From contig JAABSX010000005.1 of NCBI GenBank assembly GCA_011390205.1, positions 1 through 64,000 of the forward strand: 64,000 bases of DNA. Reading direction: 5' to 3'. Numbering within the stretch: position 1 is the stretch's first letter; the number at the start of each line of letters is the position of its first letter. This DNA is from Microscillaceae bacterium. GTDB taxonomy: Bacteria; Bacteroidota; Bacteroidia; Cytophagales; Microscillaceae. Shown here piece after piece: positions 3,761 to 24,214 of the stretch. The notes beneath the pieces are model-generated. The model saw nothing but the letters and a program-made list of their open reading frames with translations, had not been told where the DNA came from and did no database searches. The position numbers were made by a program, and so were the translations under genes.

Positions 3761-5512
3761 ATGCTCAAAACACATAATTGCGGCGAATTACGCCTTGCTC
3801 ACATTGACCAATCTGTAACACTCTGCGGCTGGGTGCAGCGTGTGCGTGACAAAGGTGCTTTACTCTTTGTAGATTTGAGAGACCGCTACGGCGTAACACA
3901 GCTCGTGGCTCGTGAGGGTGAAACTGCTCCCGAATTAATAGAAAGGATAAGAAATCTAGGGCGTGAATTTGTGCTGCAGGCACAAGGAAAAGTCGTGGAG
4001 CGTGCCTCTAAAAATCCTGAAATGCCTACTGGTAATATTGAGATAGAACTCATACAATTAGACATCCTTAATGCCTCCAAAACCCCTCCCTTCACCATAG
4101 AAGATGAGACAGATGGTGGCGAAGAGCTTAGGATGAAATACCGCTACCTAGATTTGAGGCGAAACATCGTGCGTAAAAATCTTGAATTACGCCACAGACT
4201 AAACCGTGAAACAAGGCAATATCTTGATAGTCAGGAGTTTATAGAAGTAGAGACCCCCGTATTGATTAAATCTACCCCTGAAGGTGCAAGAGATTTTGTA
4301 GTGCCTTCACGCATGAATGAAGGGCAGTTTTACGCACTTCCACAATCTCCACAGACTTTTAAGCAGCTTCTGATGGTTTCAGGCTTTGACCGCTATTATC
4401 AGATAGTAAAGTGCTTCCGTGATGAAGACCTCCGTGCAGACAGGCAGCCTGAGTTTACGCAAATAGACTGTGAGATGACTTTTGTGAACCAAGAGGACAT
4501 TCTCAATACTTTTGAAGGTATGATTAAGCATCTTTTCAAGACGGTCAAAGACATTGACTTAGAAGACTTCCCGAGAATGACTTTTGCCGATGCGATGAAA
4601 TTTTATGGCTCTGATAAGCCTGATATTCGCTTTGAGATGAAGTTTGTAGAACTCAATGAAATAGCACAAAACAAAGGCTTCAAAGTTTTTGATGATGCCC
4701 AGTTGGTTGCAGGTATTTGTGCCAAAGGCTGTGCCGAATACACTCGCAAGCAATTAGATGAGCTCACTGATTGGGTCAAAAGACCGCAAATAGGTGCAAA
4801 AGGATTGGTTTATGTAAAATGCAATGCAGACGGTACTTTTAAATCCTCAGTAGATAAGTTTTTTGCTGAAGAAGACCTAAAAACGTGGGCTACTGCACTG
4901 CAAGCCGAGCCTGGAGATTTACTTTTGGTACTTTCTGGAGATACAGACAAAGTACGCAAACAGCTTGGAGAATTACGCTTAGAAATGGGTAGTAGATTGG
5001 GTTTGAGAGATAAAAATGTATTCTCTCCGCTTTGGGTCATAGATTTTCCTCTTTTAGAATGGGATGAAGACAGCCAAAGATGGTATGCGATGCACCACCC
5101 TTTTACTTCCCCCAAGACAGAAGATATTCCGCTAGTAGAGGCAGGCAAGCTAGGCGAAGTCCGTGCCAATGCCTATGATATGGTCATGAATGGTGTAGAA
5201 CTGGGGGGTGGCTCTATCAGGATTTACCAACGCCCTATGCAAGAAAAAATGCTTTCTATTCTTGGTTTTTCAGACGAAGAAGCCCGCAATCAGTTCGGAT
5301 TCTTGATGGATGCCTTTGAGTTTGGAGCACCACCACACGGCGGGATTGCCTTTGGTTTTGACCGCCTTTGCAGTATGTTTGGTGGGGCAGATTCTATTCG
5401 TGATTTCATTGCTTTTCCTAAGAATAACTCTGGGCGAGATGTCATGCTAGATTCACCTTCTGCCATCAGTGAAGAGCAACTCAAAGAACTGGCAATTGGG
5501 TTAAGAAAATAA
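3761..5512 (+). CDS. aspS: aspartate--tRNA ligase
   Basis: This class II aminoacyl-tRNA synthetase charges tRNA-Asp in the cytoplasm. At 583 residues it is the usual bacterial length. The N-terminal OB-fold anticodon domain (about 1-105) includes [11 protein letters not shown] and LVDLRDRYG. The catalytic core carries motif 2 [14 protein letters not shown] and motif 3 in the C-terminal GIAFGFDRL. The inserted bacterial GAD domain lies around 290-420. The C-terminus [10 protein letters not shown] is typical. ATG start matches the family N-terminus ([10 protein letters not shown]). It is convergent with the histidine kinase gene, only 12 bp away. Confidence 0.97.
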
Positions 5513-5524
5513 ATATAGAACGGA

Positions 5525-6856
5525 TTAAGAAACAGATAAGGGCAGTGTAAATATAAACTCGCTGCCCTTGCCTTGCTCGCTTCTGATTTCAAAATCTCCG
5601 TCATTCTTTTCTATATAATCTTTAATCAGCAACAGGCCCAAGCCCGTTCCTTTTTCATTTTTAGTGCCGAATGTACTTTTGTGTTTCCCGAGCACAAATA
5701 GACTTTCAAGCTGCTCTTGGGTCATTCCTATGCCTTCATCTTTGATACCAATCTTAACGTGTTTATCTGCCTTGTGCACATGGATATAGATTTTGCTGCC
5801 CTCATAGCTAAATTTAATGGCATTAGAAACAAGGTTACGAAATACAATCTGAATCTGCTCAAAATCTGCCGATACTTCTACATCAGAATGAATGCTGCGC
5901 TCGAGGGTGATTTTTTTATGCTTCATCATGTCTTTGAGCAATCTTGTGCTACTCTCAATGGCTTTTTTAATGGGGAAACTGGTTTTGCTTGCTTGAGAGT
6001 CTTGCCCTATTTGGCTTCTTGACCACTGCAAGAGATTGTCCATAGAGTCAAGCGTAATATCAAGCCTGTGTGTGAGTTCTTTTTGCATAGATTCAAAATC
6101 TTCGGAAGAGAGTAATTTGTCATCAAGAACGGAGAGTACAGATTTGATGCTGACCAAAGGGCTGCGAAAATCGTGTGAAATGGCAGAGAGTATTTGGGTT
6201 TTGAGCTGGTTAAGTTCTCTAAGTTCTTCTGCTTGTTTCAGACTTTCTAAACGTTGCTGCTGAAGCTCTTTGTTTTTTTCGTTTAAAAACAAGTTTGCCC
6301 TATTTCTGGCTCTTTCAAAGATAATGTTAAAAGAATAAATCAGGAGAATCAAACCCATCACAATCAGAGATTGGGAGATGGGATACCAAGTAGGATTGTG
6401 TGTGCGCAGAAATTTTACTCCCTGAATATCAAGAAAAGCAAATAAGAAAACTAAAAATAAAACGACAAGAAGCCAAAAAAAAGATGATTTTTTATTGGTA
6501 ATCAATAAGCTGGCAGTAGGGATGCCAGCAAGCCAAGGGATTACATTAGAATAGAGCCCTCCATCAAATACAATCAAGGCAACCACAGTGAATGAAGCTA
6601 AAATAATCATCATCTGGGTTAAGAAATACAGGTGAATCCGTGATTTTAGCAAAAAAAGAAGAATAATGTATGAGAGGAAGTTGCTAAGTAAAATTTGCTT
6701 GCCTTCTTTAAAACCAATCAATACACTGATAAAATAAAACAAAAGAGAAAATGCCGAAATAATCAGGCATGCATTGATAAAGAGATGCGCTTGCTCATTG
6801 TGTGCGTATTTTTCCCCTAGAAGATATTTTTTTAACTGTTGGTATTGCTTCTTCAT
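5525..6856 (-). CDS. membrane sensor histidine kinase
   Basis: The 443-residue protein has about six hydrophobic segments in its first 180 residues and no large periplasmic sensor loop. A short coiled coil (185-220) follows, then HisKA with the phospho-acceptor H228 in SAISHDFRSP, and a HATPase_c domain with N box (NLVSNAIKFS), G1 box (DEGIGMT) and G2 box (GTGLGLLLIKDY). It therefore autophosphorylates and passes phosphate to an unknown response regulator. No regulator gene is adjacent, so it is an orphan kinase. ATG start, convergent with aspS. Confidence 0.9.
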   Translation of the reverse strand: MKKQYQQLKKYLLGEKYAHNEQAHLFINACLIISAFSLLFYFISVLIGFKEGKQILLSNFLSYIILLFLLKSRIHLYFLTQMMIILASFTVVALIVFDGGLYSNVIPWLAGIPTASLLITNKKSSFFWLLVVLFLVFLFAFLDIQGVKFLRTHNPTWYPISQSLIVMGLILLIYSFNIIFERARNRANLFLNEKNKELQQQRLESLKQAEELRELNQLKTQILSAISHDFRSPLVSIKSVLSVLDDKLLSSEDFESMQKELTHRLDITLDSMDNLLQWSRSQIGQDSQASKTSFPIKKAIESSTRLLKDMMKHKKITLERSIHSDVEVSADFEQIQIVFRNLVSNAIKFSYEGSKIYIHVHKADKHVKIGIKDEGIGMTQEQLESLFVLGKHKSTFGTKNEKGTGLGLLLIKDYIEKNDGDFEIRSEQGKGSEFIFTLPLSVS

Positions 6857-17645: not shown

Positions 17646-19412
17646 ATGAGTATTGTACTTTGGACATATATCTTGGTAGGGATTTCTTTTACCCTCTATA
17701 TCGGCATAGCCATTTGGTCTCGTGCTGGTTCTACAAAAGAGTTTTATGTAGCGGGGGGGGGTGTATCACCTTTGGCGAATGGCATGGCAACTGCAGCAGA
17801 CTGGATGTCAGCAGCTTCTTTTATCTCTATGGCAGGGATTATCTCCTTCGCAGGCTATGATGGCTCGGTATATCTGATGGGCTGGACGGGTGGCTACGTA
17901 TTGCTTGCCTTGCTTTTGGCACCATACCTTCGTAAGTTTGGTAAATTTACAGTGCCTGATTTTGTAGGTGAGCGATATTATTCGCAGACTGCTCGGGTAG
18001 TGGCTGTAATCTGTGCTTTGTTTGTATCCTTTACTTATGTGGCTGGTCAGATGCGTGGCGTAGGGATTGTGTTTTCTCGCTTTCTCCAAGTAGATATCAA
18101 TACTGGTGTAATCATCGGGATGTGTATCGTATTCTTTTATGCTGTATTAGGCGGTATGAAGGGCATTACTTACACCCAAGTAGCACAGTATTGTGTATTA
18201 ATTTTTGCATATATGGTGCCTGCAGTTTTTATTTCTATCAATCTCACAGGCAATCCTTTCCCACAATTAGGGATGGGTGGAACACTGTCAGACGGTACTT
18301 ATCTTTTGGATAAACTGGATGGTCTGAGCGTAGAGCTTGGCTTGGCAGCTTATACCGAAGGCAAAAAATCAATGATAGATATATTCTGTATTACGGCGGC
18401 GCTGATGGTAGGTACTGCGGGGCTTCCTCACGTAATTGTGCGTTTCTTCACAGTGGCCAAGGTAAAAGATGCCCGTATTTCGGCAGGATACGCCCTTGTC
18501 TTTATTGCTTTTCTTTATACTACAGCACCTGCCTTGGCAGTATTCGGTAAGTATAACCTTATCAATGCAGTAGGTGGCAAAGAAGGCATCTCTTACAAAG
18601 AATCTCCTCAATGGGTAAAATCTTGGGAAAAAGCAGGCTTGATTGCTTGGGTAGATAAAAATAATGACGGTAAGATACAATATGCCTCAGGCAAAGCCAT
18701 AGATGGAAAGCCTGAGTTTACAGACAAAACGGGTGAGCATGGGCAGAGATTGGTAAGCAACACTTCTGATATGACTGCTACGAATGAAATCTATGTGGAC
18801 AATGACATTATGGTACTTGCCAACCCTGAAATAGCCCAACTTCCCAACTGGGTCATTGCCCTAGTGGCAGCAGGTGGTCTGGCAGCAGCGCTTTCTACGG
18901 CTGCAGGTCTTTTACTGGTGATTTCATCTTCGGTCTCTCATGATTTGCTGAAAATGAACCTTATGCCCAATATGAGTGAAACGAGCGAACTACTGGCAGC
19001 ACGTATCTCAGCCGCCGCCGCAATCGTGATGGCAGGGTATTTTGGAATTTACCCTCCAGGTTTTGTGGCATCCGTAGTCGCCTTTGCCTTTGGTTTGGCT
19101 GCAGCTTCTTTCTTCCCTGTGATTATTATGGGTATCTTCTCCAAACGTATGAATATGCAGGGAGCGGTATCTGGGATGATTGTAGGCTTGACCTTCACAT
19201 TGGCTTACATTATTTATTATAAATTTATCAATCCTACTGCTGCTCCTCTCATGGGTATATCTCCCGAAGGAATAGGAACTGTAGGTATGATGCTAAACTT
19301 TATCGTCTCTTACATAGTCTCTTCCATTACTCCGCCGCCGCCACAAGAGGTACAGGATATGGTAGAAAGCATCCGCTTCCCAAGAGGGGCTGGTGAAGCA
19401 ACAGGGCATTAA
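17646..19412 (+). CDS. VC_2705-type sodium:solute symporter (acetate/monocarboxylate permease type)
   Basis: A 588-residue inner-membrane symporter of the SSS family with about 13 helices. The N-terminal region EFYVAGGGVSPLANGMATAADWMSAAS is typical of ActP/VC_2705 acetate-type permeases. A soluble insert (about 310-380) includes DKNNDGKIQY, which resembles an EF-hand loop but lacks the acidic residue at position 12; similar inserts occur in this subfamily. With the DUF4212 subunit and the porin it forms a complete uptake route. Substrate (acetate, propionate or similar) is inferred from family, not shown. It is followed by a terminator. Confidence 0.9.
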   Translation: MSIVLWTYILVGISFTLYIGIAIWSRAGSTKEFYVAGGGVSPLANGMATAADWMSAASFISMAGIISFAGYDGSVYLMGWTGGYVLLALLLAPYLRKFGKFTVPDFVGERYYSQTARVVAVICALFVSFTYVAGQMRGVGIVFSRFLQVDINTGVIIGMCIVFFYAVLGGMKGITYTQVAQYCVLIFAYMVPAVFISINLTGNPFPQLGMGGTLSDGTYLLDKLDGLSVELGLAAYTEGKKSMIDIFCITAALMVGTAGLPHVIVRFFTVAKVKDARISAGYALVFIAFLYTTAPALAVFGKYNLINAVGGKEGISYKESPQWVKSWEKAGLIAWVDKNNDGKIQYASGKAIDGKPEFTDKTGEHGQRLVSNTSDMTATNEIYVDNDIMVLANPEIAQLPNWVIALVAAGGLAAALSTAAGLLLVISSSVSHDLLKMNLMPNMSETSELLAARISAAAAIVMAGYFGIYPPGFVASVVAFAFGLAAASFFPVIIMGIFSKRMNMQGAVSGMIVGLTFTLAYIIYYKFINPTAAPLMGISPEGIGTVGMMLNFIVSYIVSSITPPPPQEVQDMVESIRFPRGAGEATGH

Positions 19413-19434
19413 AATTAATAAGTAACGAACACCC

Positions 19435-19474
19435 AAAAATAGGTGATGCATTTTGTGCATCACCTATTTTTTTT
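19435..19474 (+). terminator. terminator of the porin-symporter operon
   Basis: A 15-16 bp stem (AAAAATAGGTGATGCA with TGCATCACCTATTTTT, 5-base loop) is followed by a T run. It starts 23 bp after the symporter stop. Confidence 0.9.
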
Positions 19475-19737
19475 ATGCCAAAGCCGTTATACTCAATAAC
19501 TTATCCCCTTAACACCGGCAGTAGCCCAGAAGGAACCATAAAACCCACATTCCGCACCCCCTATTCTAATTTGTAATATTTACGAATATTATTAGAGAAA
19601 CACTGAATCCCACTTTCCGCACCCTCGGAATAAAATCTTAGTATTTAGCTTCTGACAACATTTTATTTTATTGAAAATTAGCGAGAAATTTATTAGTATA
19701 TAATATATTTTTAATTTAATTTTTACAAATTAAAGTA

Positions 19738-20200
19738 TGGACAGGTAAATAAAAAGCGGACAAAAAGTTAAGCAATAAGTGAATAGTTGATTTTATGTTC
19801 GTTTTCTAGTTCTAAAATGGTTTTATACCCAATGTATGAGTGCCTTCTCTGGCGATGATACCAAATCTCGTATACTCAAAAATAAGGCTTTTCGTCTCTT
19901 TCCTGCTCTTGATTTGTTGTCTGTAAATCGCTTCGGTCTTTAAAGATTAAAAAAACTTTTAGCTACTGCATTGTCCCAATAGTTGGCTTTTCGGCTCATA
20001 CTCTGTTTCACTTTATCAGCTTTTAAAGCGTTTCGGAAAGATTCTGAGGCGTATTGTACCCCCCTATCCGAATGAAAAATCAAGCCTTCTGCAAGCCTGT
20101 ACTTAGCCAGAGCTTGATACCAAGTGGGCAATATGGTGTCCTCAGTGCGAAGTGTTTCACTGAGTGACCAAGCTACAACCTTTCTTTGATAGAGCCCCAG
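19738..20200 (-). pseudogene. IS3-family transposase OrfB remnant (integrase core), frameshifted
   Basis: Reading the minus strand from 20200, LYQRKVVAWSLSE, then GLIFHSDRGVQYAS and SMSRKANYWDNAVAKSFF match the rve integrase core of IS3 OrfB, including the second catalytic Asp (HSDRG) and the region before the Glu, which is Lys here (AVAKSFF in place of AVAESFF). The frame breaks at about 19942 (KTEAIYRQQ continues in another frame) and again near 19862 (YHRQRRHSYIGY in a third frame). The end at about 19738 (minus strand ...TTTACCTGTCCA) may be the IS terminus. With two frameshifts and no N-terminal half, it is dead. Confidence 0.85.
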
Positions 20201-20536
20201 TTCTTTTAGTTGATCCAGAAAGTGAACTTTATCGAAGATTTACACCGAGAGAAGCAGCACGTATTCAGTCTTTTCCAGATAATTTTACTTTTCTCGTAAG
20301 TGACACTCAAGCATAGGCAAATTGGAAACGCAATACCACCTGGTTTAATGTGGCATGTGATCAAATCTTTAAGCGAAGCAAGAAATAGGTTAGAAAATCC
20401 AACACTAAAAGCCATACACATTTGCAATTCGTACCAGCCTACACACGAGCCAAAACTTGCTAAAGAGTATGTCTTTGCCAATGCTGACAGACGGACGAAA
20501 AAAAAAGTACGATTGCCCAACAATGGCTATACATAA
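20164..20536 (+). pseudogene. C5-cytosine DNA methyltransferase C-terminal remnant, frameshifted
   Basis: From about 20203 the plus strand reads LLVDPESELYRRFTPREAARIQSFPDNF, which is the FTxREAARIQSFPD motif (motif IX) of Dcm-type methyltransferases. At 20315 the frame hits TAG; the following frame (starting about 20300) reads HRQIGNAIPPGLMWHVIKSL, the conserved QIGNAVPP motif X. The two halves are in different frames because two bases are missing (or one is extra) at about 20314. The N-terminal catalytic PCQ/ENV motifs are absent, cut off at the IS3 remnant. It is the remains of a restriction-modification system. Confidence 0.85.
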
Positions 20537-20668
20537 TGCGGGCTAAAGTGCTGATATGAAAGTAATTACATTAAATAAGCTAGCTGCTAAATTGAAAGTG
20601 AGTGCCTTGAAATCCGACTACCTGCCACAAGTATAGGTATAAAAATCAGAGAATATGCTTGATAATCA

Positions 20669-20705
20669 AGCACTTAACAAATAAAGTTGTCAAGTGCTTT
20701 TTTTA
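20669..20705 (+). terminator. rho-independent terminator in the degraded region
   Basis: AAGCACTTAACAA pairs with TTGTCAAGTGCTT (one mismatch), followed by a T run. It is read in the direction of the methyltransferase remnant and small ORF, suggesting that these were once transcribed to this point. Confidence 0.7.
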
Positions 20706-20763
20706 TGTACCTATTATTTTGAGCCAAAAAAGTATTGCTTGTATCAGGTTATTTCTTTGGGTT

Positions 20764-22074
20764 TTACCATCTGTAGAATATAACCGTTCTTAGCCCATAA
20801 GTTTGGCTTTGTCTGCTTTTGCTTTGTGTATCACTGAGGGCATATTTAAAGTAAGGTATGACTTGTATGTGTGTATGCTTGTTGAGAGAGTATTCTAGCC
20901 CTGCACTCAAGTTCCAGCTTAGATTTGTCCCCATATATTTTCTATCACTTGTAAAGCTATTATTACTGCCCAGCCGTTCGCCTGAGTTGGCATCTATGAA
21001 TATATTTTCAGATTCATAGATTTGTTTTTCGGTCAGGTTCACCCCGATAGTAAGCCCTGATGCTGCAAAGATGCGCCATCTTGGCTGCAAATTACTCATA
21101 AACTTAATTTCTATAGGCACTTCTAAGCGTTCTATTTTGGTGCCTCTTTCTTTTTCTATCGTAAGCTGACTGATGCGTGTATCTTCGTCTAGTGAGACGG
21201 TCTGTGTGCTTACATTTTGTCTAAAATTTTTATCTATATTTTGAAATTTTTGGAAGTAATTCATTCCTATCCCCACTCTTAGGTGTGTGTTTATGAGTCT
21301 TTCTGCATGTATGGAGATAGCCCCATACCAGTCATTATTGCGGGTACTGTATTTTGGGGCAAATGTTACCTCAGAGCTCATTCCTAAGCCTACTTGCCAT
21401 TTTGGTCTTTGGGAATATAGTGCGGAGTTAAAGGCTACTTCTTCAGGTTTTGCTGCCTTTGTAATTTCTACAGGAAAACGTACTTCGGGCAAGCTGCTTA
21501 GTGCTTCCGTGGAGTTTTGCTGCTGTGTTGGTGTTTCTTGTGTGGTGCTTATGCTTATTCCTGATATTTTAGCTCTTTCTTGTATTGCAGGCACCAGTAC
21601 TAGAGGAGGGATTTCTTTTGTAAAATTGATTTGCGTATTTTGAGTAATTTGCTCTTTTTGGAAAGTGGCAGATTCACCTTGATTTGAGTTTAGAGGGGAG
21701 TTATTATTGTGTAAATTTTCTTCATGCAGTTCTTTTTTGATGTGTGCTTCTTTTTGATTTGAGCTAGATTTTTCTTGCTTTTTCAGTGTATTCTGTGTGC
21801 TTATTTTTTTGTCAAGTGAAGCTTCTTTACTGCTATGCTTGTTTGTTTGGCTAGGATAAATTTCATTTTGGGTATATTGATAAGTAAGCCCCGCCCCGAG
21901 CAATAAGGCAGCTGCAGCCATGCCTGCCACATTTCTGAGTGTAAAGATGCTTTTTTTGGGTTTGGGTAATCTTTCTTCCAGACTAAGCCATGCCTTTTCA
22001 TCAAATTTTGGTTGAATTTTATGAAGCTTTTGCCTCATAAATTCATCAAATACGTCCTCATCTTCTAAGTTCAT
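20764..22074 (-). CDS. anti-sigma-like protein with outer-membrane beta-barrel domain (dual membrane-spanning type)
   Basis: The 436-residue protein has a charged cytoplasmic N-terminus (1-45, FDEFMRQKLHKIQPKFDEKAW...), one transmembrane helix (about 47-64), a long Gln/Ser/Thr/Lys-rich linker (66-215) and a C-terminal beta-barrel (about 222-436: WQVGLGMSSEVTFAP, GAISIHAERLINTHLRVGIGMNY, ending FYRW). Its start overlaps the stop of the ECF sigma gene by 4 bp. This layout matches the dual membrane-spanning anti-sigma (Dma) proteins described in Bacteroides, where the N-terminus binds the sigma factor and the barrel sits in the outer membrane. No FecR domain is present. Assignment is by architecture, not direct homology. 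Confidence 0.75.
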   Translation of the reverse strand: MNLEDEDVFDEFMRQKLHKIQPKFDEKAWLSLEERLPKPKKSIFTLRNVAGMAAAALLLGAGLTYQYTQNEIYPSQTNKHSSKEASLDKKISTQNTLKKQEKSSSNQKEAHIKKELHEENLHNNNSPLNSNQGESATFQKEQITQNTQINFTKEIPPLVLVPAIQERAKISGISISTTQETPTQQQNSTEALSSLPEVRFPVEITKAAKPEEVAFNSALYSQRPKWQVGLGMSSEVTFAPKYSTRNNDWYGAISIHAERLINTHLRVGIGMNYFQKFQNIDKNFRQNVSTQTVSLDEDTRISQLTIEKERGTKIERLEVPIEIKFMSNLQPRWRIFAASGLTIGVNLTEKQIYESENIFIDANSGERLGSNNSFTSDRKYMGTNLSWNLSAGLEYSLNKHTHIQVIPYFKYALSDTQSKSRQSQTYGLRTVIFYRW

Positions 22075-22628
22075 TGCTTTATTTTTTCTAAAATTTCTAA
22101 TTTTTTTTGTAGATGTTTTCTTGCTTTTGCCAAGTTAGATTTAGAAGTGCCTACATGGATGCCGAGCTTCTGGGCGATTTCTTCGTGCTTAAATCCATCC
22201 ATGACATAGAGGTTAAAGACCGTTCTGTATGAGGGAGGTAGGTCTTGCACAAGCTTCAGCAGGTCCTGCTCATTAATCTCACTGATGGCATCTGCCTCAG
22301 AGGAGGAGATGCTTCTGACTTCTTCTATTTCTATGGAATAGACATCTTTGGGTTTTTTTCGGTAATAATCAATAGAGGTATTAATCATAATTCTTCTGAG
22401 CCAAAAAATAAAAGGTCTTTCTGCTTGGTAGGTATGTATTTTGGTGAATACCTTCATAAACCCGTCATTAAGAATCTCCTGAGCCTCATCAGAATCTGAG
22501 GTATATCGCAGGCAAATGCTCATAGCAAAACCATAGAAATGCTGATAAAGCTTCTTTTGACTGGCTCTCTGCCCTTTTCGGCATCCTTCTACAAGACCTG
22601 CTACATACGCTTCGCTAGACTCTTTCAC
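22071..22628 (-). CDS. ECF RNA polymerase sigma factor
   Basis: The 185-residue sigma-70 factor shows region 2 (LCLRYTSDSDEAQEILNDGF-type sequence leading to FIFWLRRIMINTSIDYYRK) and region 4 (LPPSYRTVFNLYVMDGFKHEEIAQKLG, then STSKSNLAKARKHL-like recognition helix). It uses a GTG start (GTG AAA GAG TCT); no in-frame ATG precedes it. Its stop overlaps the start of the trans-envelope partner gene, implying coupled translation and a sigma/anti-sigma pair that senses envelope state. Confidence 0.93.
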   Translation of the reverse strand: MKESSEAYVAGLVEGCRKGQRASQKKLYQHFYGFAMSICLRYTSDSDEAQEILNDGFMKVFTKIHTYQAERPFIFWLRRIMINTSIDYYRKKPKDVYSIEIEEVRSISSSEADAISEINEQDLLKLVQDLPPSYRTVFNLYVMDGFKHEEIAQKLGIHVGTSKSNLAKARKHLQKKLEILEKIKQ

Positions 22629-22764
22629 AAATTACTTTTTTGCTTTTGTTTGCACGTATTTTTTCTTCAGAGCGTTGCCTGTGCTTTCATATATTTTATC
22701 GAGCATCACAAAGCAACTCTGCTACGAAGCCCTCTTTTGAAAACATAATTTAGGGATATTTTCG

Positions 22765-22772
22765 TAATTTTG
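22765..22772 (+). promoter_or_regulatory. -7 box TAATTTTG before mtaB
   Basis: Exact TAnnTTTG match 56 bp before the first possible ATG (22829), with TTTG at 22736-22739 as a distant -33 candidate (25 bp apart, a little long). Confidence 0.45.
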
Positions 22773-22867
22773 CGTGTTGTATTATTTGTAAAACCTCCGC
22801 AATAAGCAAAACAAGGTTTCCTAAAATAATGTTGAGAAAAGAGAACATACCCATAAGCCATCAAGAC

Positions 22868-24214
22868 ATGAAAAAAGTAGCTTTTTATACCCTCGGCTGT
22901 AAGCTAAATTATTCTGAAACCTCCACCATCGCGCGGCAATTTGAGCAGAGGGGCTTTCAAAAAGTTGATTTTAGTGATACCCCCGATGTATTTATCATCA
23001 ATACTTGCTCTGTAACTGAGAATGCAGACAAAAAATGCCGCAAACTGGTAAAAGAAGCTCAAAAAATATCCCCTGATGCTTTCGTCGCAATCATAGGATG
23101 CTATGCCCAACTCAAACCCCAAGAAATCTCCGAAATACCTGGAGTAGATGCCGTCTTGGGTGCTTCAGAAAAATTTCAACTCTTAGACTTACTCCCCACC
23201 TTTGAAAAAAAGAAAAAAAATAAACCTACACAAACTGCCCAGCCAAGCAAAGCTCAAGTCTATGTGCAGGAAGTTTGTCATGCCCAGACTTTTGAGACTT
23301 CTTACTCTATCGGAGACCGCACTCGTACCTTCTTAAAAGTACAAGATGGCTGTAATTACAACTGCTCTTTTTGTACTATTCCGCTGGCAAGGGGCAAAAG
23401 TAGAAGTGATACCATCACCAATATCGTAGAACGTGCCAAAGAGATAGCCCAAACAGAGGTAAAGGAAATCGTCATTACAGGTGTTAACACAGGTGATTTT
23501 GGAATACAAAACGGACGAAGAGTAGAGAGATTTGTAGATTTGTGCAAAGCCCTTGATGAAGTAGAGGGCATAGAGCGGTTTAGGATTTCTTCCATAGAGC
23601 CTAATCTACTCTCTGATGAAGTCATTGAGTTTGTGGCACAGTCTAAAAGGTTTGTACCTCATTTTCATATCCCGCTACAGTCAGGCAATGACCGCTTGCT
23701 TGAGCTCATGCGCCGCCGCTACCGCAAAGATTTATATACCGAACGTATCCAGAAAATTAAGCAACTGATGCCTCACTGCTGTATCGGGGTGGATGTGATT
23801 GTGGGCTTCCCGAGCGAAACAGAGGCTGATTTTTTGGAAACTTATCAGTTTTTGAATGATTTAGAAATTTCATACCTGCACGTTTTTAGCTATTCGGAGC
23901 GTACAGATACGCCCGCAATAGAGATAAAACCCGTAGTGCCTATCAAGCTACGCAACGAACGCTCTAAAATGCTCAGAATCCTTTCTGATAAAAAACGCCG
24001 ATACTTCTATGAGCAGCAAGTCCAGAAGGAGTTTACTGTTTTGTTTGAAAATGATGTGGAAAATGGAAATATACATGGCTTCACAGAAAACTATGTGCGT
24101 GTACAAGCCAAGTATGACCCCATGCTCATCAATGCCCTCAAGCCTGTACGCTTGCTCCACATCAATGAAAAGATGCTGGCAGAGGTGGAAGAATTAGAAG
24201 TATTTATTTCCTAA
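22868..24214 (+). CDS. mtaB: tRNA t6A37 methylthiotransferase MtaB
   Basis: A radical-SAM methylthiotransferase that converts t6A37 to ms2t6A in tRNAs decoding ANN codons. The UPF0004 N-terminal domain (TLGCKLNYSET, TCSVTENADKKCR, GCYAQ) supplies three cluster-binding cysteines. The radical-SAM motif is CNYNCSFC (CxxxCxxC) and a TRAM-like domain ends the protein. The CKLNYSET form identifies MtaB rather than MiaB or RimO. I start at 22868 (MKKVAFYTLGCKLN), matching relatives; an in-frame ATG at 22829 would add 13 residues. Confidence 0.93.
   Translation: MKKVAFYTLGCKLNYSETSTIARQFEQRGFQKVDFSDTPDVFIINTCSVTENADKKCRKLVKEAQKISPDAFVAIIGCYAQLKPQEISEIPGVDAVLGASEKFQLLDLLPTFEKKKKNKPTQTAQPSKAQVYVQEVCHAQTFETSYSIGDRTRTFLKVQDGCNYNCSFCTIPLARGKSRSDTITNIVERAKEIAQTEVKEIVITGVNTGDFGIQNGRRVERFVDLCKALDEVEGIERFRISSIEPNLLSDEVIEFVAQSKRFVPHFHIPLQSGNDRLLELMRRRYRKDLYTERIQKIKQLMPHCCIGVDVIVGFPSETEADFLETYQFLNDLEISYLHVFSYSERTDTPAIEIKPVVPIKLRNERSKMLRILSDKKRRYFYEQQVQKEFTVLFENDVENGNIHGFTENYVRVQAKYDPMLINALKPVRLLHINEKMLAEVEELEVFIS

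Follow-up and report, generated by a model that had tools for sequence, protein, structure and literature searches.

A stretch of 64,000 nucleotides from a Microscillaceae bacterium of the order Cytophagales (Bacteroidota; contig JAABSX010000005.1, positions 1 to 64,000), referred to here as the window, carries an extracytoplasmic function (ECF) sigma factor gene that overlaps the gene of a partner protein, and the two probably form a sigma/anti-sigma pair that regulates itself, with an anti-sigma bridging the whole cell envelope, through which the outer surface could act directly on transcription. An initial annotation, made from the DNA letters alone, had described the partner as an anti-sigma-like protein with a sigma-binding-like N-terminus, one inner-membrane helix, a disordered linker and an outer-membrane barrel. 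That observation is confirmed, and its interpretation is supported and right in substance. The anatomy of the partner, its pairing with the sigma factor and a conserved promoter element are supported by computation, and the corresponding features are listed in Table 1.

Table 1. Features of the sigma/anti-sigma pair in the window
Feature	Coordinates	Strand	Details
ECF sigma factor gene	22071..22628	-	GTG start, 185 aa; Pfam and NCBIfam matches
Anti-sigma-like, dual membrane-spanning protein gene	20764..22074	-	436 aa; overlaps sigma gene by 4 nt
Cytoplasmic two-helix sigma-binding-like domain	21940..22074	-	residues 1-45; helices 6-19 and 26-35
Single inner-membrane helix, predicted	21871..21939	-	residues 46-68; AlphaFold2
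Unstructured periplasmic linker	21409..21870	-	residues 69-222 (154 residues); predicted local distance difference test (pLDDT)
8-stranded OmpA-type outer-membrane barrel, predicted	20767..21408	-	residues 223-436; Pfam, AlphaFold2, Foldseek, VIA-align, strand alternation
Predicted autoregulatory ECF promoter	22653..22679	-	conserved fused-class motif

Both open reading frames (ORFs) were found on the minus strand with the overlap that had been noticed, the ATG of the partner gene overlapping the stop codon of the sigma gene at the shared nucleotides 22071-22074. The sigma factor matched Sigma70_r2 (51.8 bits) and Sigma70_r4_2 (60.6 bits) in Pfam and TIGR02937 (sigma70-ECF superfamily, 98.6 bits) in NCBIfam, the latter being the only family above its cut-off among the best 25 of 98 NCBIfam rows. 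No Rfam family was matched at gathering thresholds within positions 19300-23000. The sigma alignment was used to scan one genome per species, and the best 80 of 350 relatives were taken, spanning Microscillaceae, Microscilla, Larkinella, Runella, Pontibacter, Rufibacter, Fulvivirga, Chryseolinea, Spirosoma, Saprospiraceae, Balneolaceae, Fodinibius, a Kapaibacterium and others. The N-terminal domain of the partner was present in 78 of the 79 ORFs directly downstream of these sigma genes (worst E-value 1.4e-6), 52 of the 78 being outside the training set of the domain profile, and it was also found in frame at the 80th locus (L106), where the contig ends without an ORF of 120 aa. The pairing is not due to chance: at 79 of the 80 loci the cytoplasmic domain comes directly after the sigma gene. 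The partner alignment (A5) consisted of 75 sequences plus P0001, with L106, L104, L074 and L099 (both truncated at contig ends) and L112 (stretches of N) omitted, and an alignment of N-terminal domains (A6) held 27 of 31 segments, with L098, L107, L116 and L120 omitted.

The partner was modelled by AlphaFold2 from a 76-row alignment (mean pLDDT 71, predicted template modelling score 0.55), and the model has helices at residues 6-19 and 26-35, a long helix at residues 46-68, low confidence up to about residue 216 and strands from residue 226 to 435. Pfam matches over residues 221-416 place the strand region in the families PF13568 (30.3 bits, cut-off 27) and PF13505 (30.0 bits, cut-off 28.7), which were the sole matches of the partner at E <= 1; PF13568 was present in 55 of 76 members at E <= 0.01. 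When residues 219-436 were compared with known structures by VIA-align, the OmpA model was matched with a Z score of 18.7 (2.5 A over 168 residues), followed by 1bxw (18.3), NspA (17.9), OprF (17.9) and OmpW (17.6), whereas soluble barrels such as YceI reached only about 10. The difference in greasiness between the two strand faces was 3.24 in the window protein against 1.55 when shuffled, and 2.94 against 1.18 in the family, and neither value was reached in any of 5000 shuffles; the eight strand stretches used for this test had limits set by hand. An outer-membrane barrel rather than a soluble one is indicated because the strand faces alternate between greasy and polar. This evidence bears directly on the alternative, named beforehand as the outcome that would tell against the annotation, that the C-terminal domain folds into a barrel-like structure in the periplasm, which would make the partner an ordinary single-pass anti-sigma. 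With outer-membrane proteins at Z scores of 17-19, the alternating faces and two Pfam outer-membrane barrel families above cut-off, that alternative is very improbable, and the predicted outer-membrane barrel stands. The aromatic ending noticed at first holds for the window protein, whose last residue is W, but not for the group, which it does not define, as F or W is terminal in just 14 of 76 members.

Upstream of the barrel, the two predicted helices form a conserved domain of the kind expected of a cytoplasmic sigma-binding N-terminus, and it may bind the sigma factor. Over 75 sequences (L047 being omitted from the column counts), its pattern is roughly D-x-[LFI]-D-x-[LIF]-F-[RK] ... P-x-[FY]-x3-[AD]-W-x2-[ML]-x2-[KR]-L-D, where W29 is present in 74, position 32 is M or L in 71 and position 36 is L in 67. 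No anti-sigma family was matched by the window protein in Pfam or NCBIfam at E <= 1, which sets it apart from class I anti-sigmas (RseA/RskA/ZAS type) and from CnrY, and the other families listed among the 76 members, PIG-X (two members) and AI-2E_transport (one member), were taken as chance. In size, the two helices before the membrane helix resemble the two-helix CnrY type (class II) described in a survey of ECF sigma factors (PMC7406223). A sequence search for a solved relative of the domain gave one match, to a designed protein at E 0.58, which was also taken as chance. Several of the top covarying pairs join residues 9, 10 and 12 of helix 1 with sigma residues 120, 142 and 158, other top pairs lying elsewhere; according to the same survey, helix 1 of an anti-sigma contacts sigma region 4 as a general rule (PMC7406223). 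These pairs are treated as a lead and not as evidence because of shared ancestry and the 41 effective sequences available. In one relative (L047, Microscillaceae SKYG84, 4539-6218, the same place as L042:1653-3335), the cytoplasmic motif occurs as a tandem triplicate ahead of the membrane helix, with profile matches at residues 10-38, 46-80 and 82-149, and a model of modest confidence (mean pLDDT 66) would allow three pairs of helices. Were every copy to bind sigma, up to three molecules could be held by a single chain.

The single inner-membrane helix claimed for the partner was predicted by AlphaFold2 and is borne out by the family, in which exactly one segment with hydropathy of at least 1.6 was found in 65 of 76 members, two in four and none in seven, including the window protein. 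Its own segment is weak (Kyte-Doolittle 1.57 over 19 residues, while 70 of 76 members reach 1.6), and the call for this protein therefore rests on the model together with the family. The disordered linker of about 150 residues was recovered as residues 69-222, with ten-residue block means of pLDDT of 44-49 across residues 71-180. When mapped through the alignment of the 76 members, the linker ranges from 130 to 639 residues (median 200) and the barrel from 191 to 246; a variable linker beside a barrel of steady length is as expected if the linker is a tether. Four members (L067, L071, L075 and L076) have very long low-complexity linkers of 607-639 residues from membrane helix to barrel.

A profile of the cytoplasmic domain plus membrane helix was matched in 135 of the 193 genomes examined from the order. 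Among 296 genomes drawn from the phylum, 83 had a match, comprising 12 of the order (the own genome of the window included), 58 other members of the class and 13 from other classes, all 13 belonging to one family. Among the 150 order matches listed, 108 were in open frames of at least 350 aa; the other 42 lay in shorter frames, and frame length peaked again at 250-300 aa. A sample of 20 of these 42 short frames, picked by hand and including some near-copies, revealed a split sister class. Each of the 20 loci, all found through the N-terminal domain profile itself, contains a sigma gene (profile E 2e-46 or better), and the gene after it encodes a short anti-sigma matching the N-terminal domain profile. 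The split anti-sigmas end in a tail without a barrel, with a median of 200 residues and a range of 118-231 (24 proteins, four of them from earlier loci), and a third gene follows in all 19 loci that extend far enough. The third proteins start with an apparent signal peptide (by eye), and most are of one family, L196 and L033 being divergent. PF13568 was matched at E <= 0.01 by 17 of the 19 third proteins, the exceptions being L185 (C-terminal part unaligned) and L196, and by 18 of 22 when three earlier loci are added (L030 matches; L041 and L033 do not). Anti-sigma and barrel are thus linked twice over, being fused in one chain in one class and neighbours in an operon in the other, and the split operons, as an independent link between the two, support the envelope-spanning pair.

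Both classes were also found in the genome from which the window comes. It holds a split operon (contig C31, L030), the sigma factor of which is 41% identical to that of the window, a second likely split operon (C41, L033) whose third gene has no Pfam match, and a second fused candidate (C36, L031, 1793-3932) with barrel matches below cut-off. The sigma factor of L031 stands on a long branch near the split class, and fusion or splitting may have occurred more than once. Profile comparison of fused and split barrels gave a probability of 41 and an E-value of 0.0003; most of both match PF13568, and common descent is not established by these sequence comparisons. In the split anti-sigmas, the last 55 residues are 17% alike, against 12-13% in mid-tail (21 proteins), which is a lead towards a putative conserved docking end. 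No title or abstract describing the split operon was found in open-licence PubMed Central, where the searches were mostly aimed at other topics, and specialists may not have met the split class, whose promoters have a -10 element of their own, or the triplicated N-terminal domain before.

The fused and split classes are also distinguished by their promoters. At the window site, a -35 element GGCAAC (22679-22674) and a -10 element CGTG (22656-22653) are separated by a 17-nt spacer, 24 nt before the sigma start codon. GCAACC occurs upstream of fused-class sigma genes in 51 of 75 non-redundant regions, against 3.8 when shuffled, and in 46 of the 75 the score of a two-box model lies above the 99th percentile for shuffled regions, although the model was trained on the same regions. 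The pattern GCAAC[CG]-N15-17-CGT was found in 41 of 80 fused upstream regions (the window and 79 loci, L106 missing; shuffle mean 0.30) and in none of 23 split regions (L185-L204, L030, L041 and L033), whereas GCAAC[CG]-N15-17-CATC was found in 18 of the 23 split regions and in none of the 80 fused ones. Shuffle means for the two patterns were 0.07-0.30; both patterns were chosen after these regions had been viewed, and both sets hold some near-copies. The presence of the conserved motif upstream of the sigma genes and in the window suggests that the pair is autoregulated from a GCAAC-N-CGT promoter. In a sigma tree of 51 rows, 29 fused-class sigmas fall on one side of a branch (100/99), and 20 split-class sigmas, the long-branched L031 of the own genome and L032 fall on the other; the fused rows were 28 of the 80 loci, the window and L031, and the 20 split rows excluded the near-copies L190, L194 and L195. 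Many sigma positions distinguish the classes (compared without L190, L194, L195, L196 and L033), as expected of two clades. Among them are positions 84, 87 and 89, presumably lying in region 2.4, the reader of the -10 element, and their tie to the differing -10 elements is a lead.

A wider regulon was sought with the same motif. In the own genome, GGCAACN{15,19}CGTR gave 29 sites against 18 in a reversed control; of eight sites inspected, seven lay inside ORFs of at least 100 aa (either strand), the exception being the site before the window sigma gene. This site was likewise the only one of four with a spacer of 17 that lay outside such ORFs, and a second pattern gave 5 sites against 6 in its control. 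On these results, no wider regulon can be named in this genome. In 10 relatives, 27 sites were found against 12 in the reversed control, 10 of the 27 being sigma promoters by construction, as the genomes were chosen for having them. Two of the other 17 sites (in G481 and G483) lie 40-60 nt before lipoprotein-like genes (by eye), the G483 site being just upstream of its sigma gene and also inside the longest reading of its own ORF, and the remaining 15 lie inside ORFs of at least 150 aa on either strand. Two non-sigma candidates are too few to define a regulon in relatives. The two loci, L183 (G483:C14) and L171 (G481:C3), with the fused-class motif before lipoprotein-like genes are noted as a candidate small regulon.

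Taken with gene pairing, the Bacteroides and Phocaeicola work and general knowledge of anti-sigmas, from which we infer sigma binding, location in both membranes and signalling, these features suggest the following mechanism. The short two-helix N-terminus would bind the ECF sigma factor and hold it in the cytoplasm, the single helix would span the inner membrane, the long unstructured tether would span the periplasm, and the predicted 8-stranded barrel would be seated in the outer membrane. A disturbed outer membrane or barrel, or an unassembled barrel, may lead to the tether or inner part being altered or cut, whereby sigma would be freed. Three matches to M50 (site-2-type) proteases were found in the own genome, but they say little, since the family was present in all 14 control genomes as well. 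Freed sigma would transcribe its own operon from the conserved GCAAC-N-CGT site, and the response would thus amplify itself and then be re-set by newly made anti-sigma. The sister class in the same genome would do the same job with a separate barrel protein and a different -10 element, its gene order and domains being observed.

Several points weigh against an envelope-spanning anti-sigma of this kind. The membrane helix of the window member is only weakly hydrophobic, and paired-column covariation between N-terminal domain and sigma is weak. The sigma relative L104 is without such a partner, as the cytoplasmic anti-sigma domain is absent from the 8.5 kb of DNA examined and an unrelated ORF lies downstream of sigma. 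The strict CGT promoter pattern is absent from 39 of 80 upstream regions, and fused and split barrels appear alike by profile just weakly. A chain retaining its inner-membrane anchor would also face the difficulty of reaching the barrel-assembly machinery. A chain cut in maturation, leaving an inner-membrane anti-sigma with a long tail that touches a separate outer-membrane barrel as in cell-surface signalling, is made workable-looking by the separate barrels of the split operons in the same genome and in relatives; with linker length unconserved (130-639 residues), so that no fixed cutting domain is visible, and no FecR-like or other recognised Pfam domain between helix and barrel of the window protein, we consider it unlikely. 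Some iron-uptake sigma regulators have been reported as needed for sigma activity, and gene order alone does not tell a brake from a helper, so the partner might also be an activator or chaperone needed by sigma. This is quite improbable in view of related systems: Phocaeicola strains that have the sigma but lack a working anti-sigma of the same build have the regulon on (PMC9308784), and loss of Dma1 in Bacteroides thetaiotaomicron is said to relieve repression of its sigma factor (PMC13088901).

The intact envelope-spanning anti-sigma has the build of the Dma (dual membrane-spanning anti-sigma) proteins of Bacteroides, beside which it is set by build and not by sequence; the likeness drawn in the initial annotation is apt in the neighbouring sigma gene and in the predicted N-terminal domain, helix and barrel. 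As with Dma1/Dma2 and Das1/Das2 of B. thetaiotaomicron, the ECF sigma gene adjoins the anti-sigma gene and one protein is predicted to have domains from the outer membrane into the cytosol. In B. thetaiotaomicron, loss of Dma2 raises vesicle output in a manner dependent on its sigma factor (PMC13088901). The window pair differs in belonging to another bacterial order, the link to vesicles being one reported for Dma, and its family adds the promoter element, the split sister class and the triplicated cytoplasmic domain. Phocaeicola vulgatus has a further similar pair, M0N98_03761/03760, in which a sigma gene precedes the gene of a long anti-sigma that has a C-terminal barrel and is predicted to cross the periplasm; the pair is likened in that study to the EcfO pair of B. 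fragilis (PMC9308784). In this species, an insertion in a gene of the same build raises 14 genes and lowers one; each of the 15 moves in the same direction when an antibacterial toxin is present, which raises the sigma gene 33-fold (PMC9308784). The sigma gene of the pair is strongly induced on activation, which may be compared with the predicted autoregulation of the window pair (PMC9308784). The order is again different, and the likeness is one of described build, not sequence.

The outline also resembles cell-surface signalling of the FecI/FecR/FecA kind, in which an outer-membrane barrel signals to an inner-membrane anti-sigma and thence to an ECF sigma factor, and the split class resembles it further in having a separate barrel. 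Unlike FecA, a TonB-dependent receptor, the predicted barrel of the window protein is 8-stranded, and no FecR-type domain was found in the window protein (Pfam, E <= 1). A wider scheme, which we put forward tentatively and regard as somewhat doubtful, is that Bacteroidota use two interchangeable builds derived from one ancestral module, a fused chain and a split form in which the end of a long anti-sigma tail docks on a separately secreted barrel. The shared -35 element with CGT or CATC at -10 would insulate sister circuits in one cell, and the signal would come from the barrel itself, through its insertion into the outer membrane or its integrity there.

Two short ORFs in the gap that separates the symporter gene from the anti-sigma gene (19940-20131, minus strand; 20164-20536, plus strand) appear by eye to be remnants of an IS3-type transposase and of the C-terminus of a cytosine DNA methyltransferase.

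ECF sigma factors are numerous in Bacteroidota. In the survey of these factors, class I anti-sigma domains stand beside only 6% of those in this phylum against an average of 32%, and other anti-sigma classes are suggested to dominate there perhaps (PMC7406223). The Dma-like kind is already known from gut Bacteroides, and the window pair is a further member in a relative of Cytophaga. A widespread anti-sigma of the envelope-spanning type, and beside it the split class, would go some way towards closing this gap in Bacteroidota. The fused and split pair makes the mechanism testable, as the split barrel can be exchanged, removed or fused while the anti-sigma is left as it is, and the two -10 elements would supply one reporter for each class.
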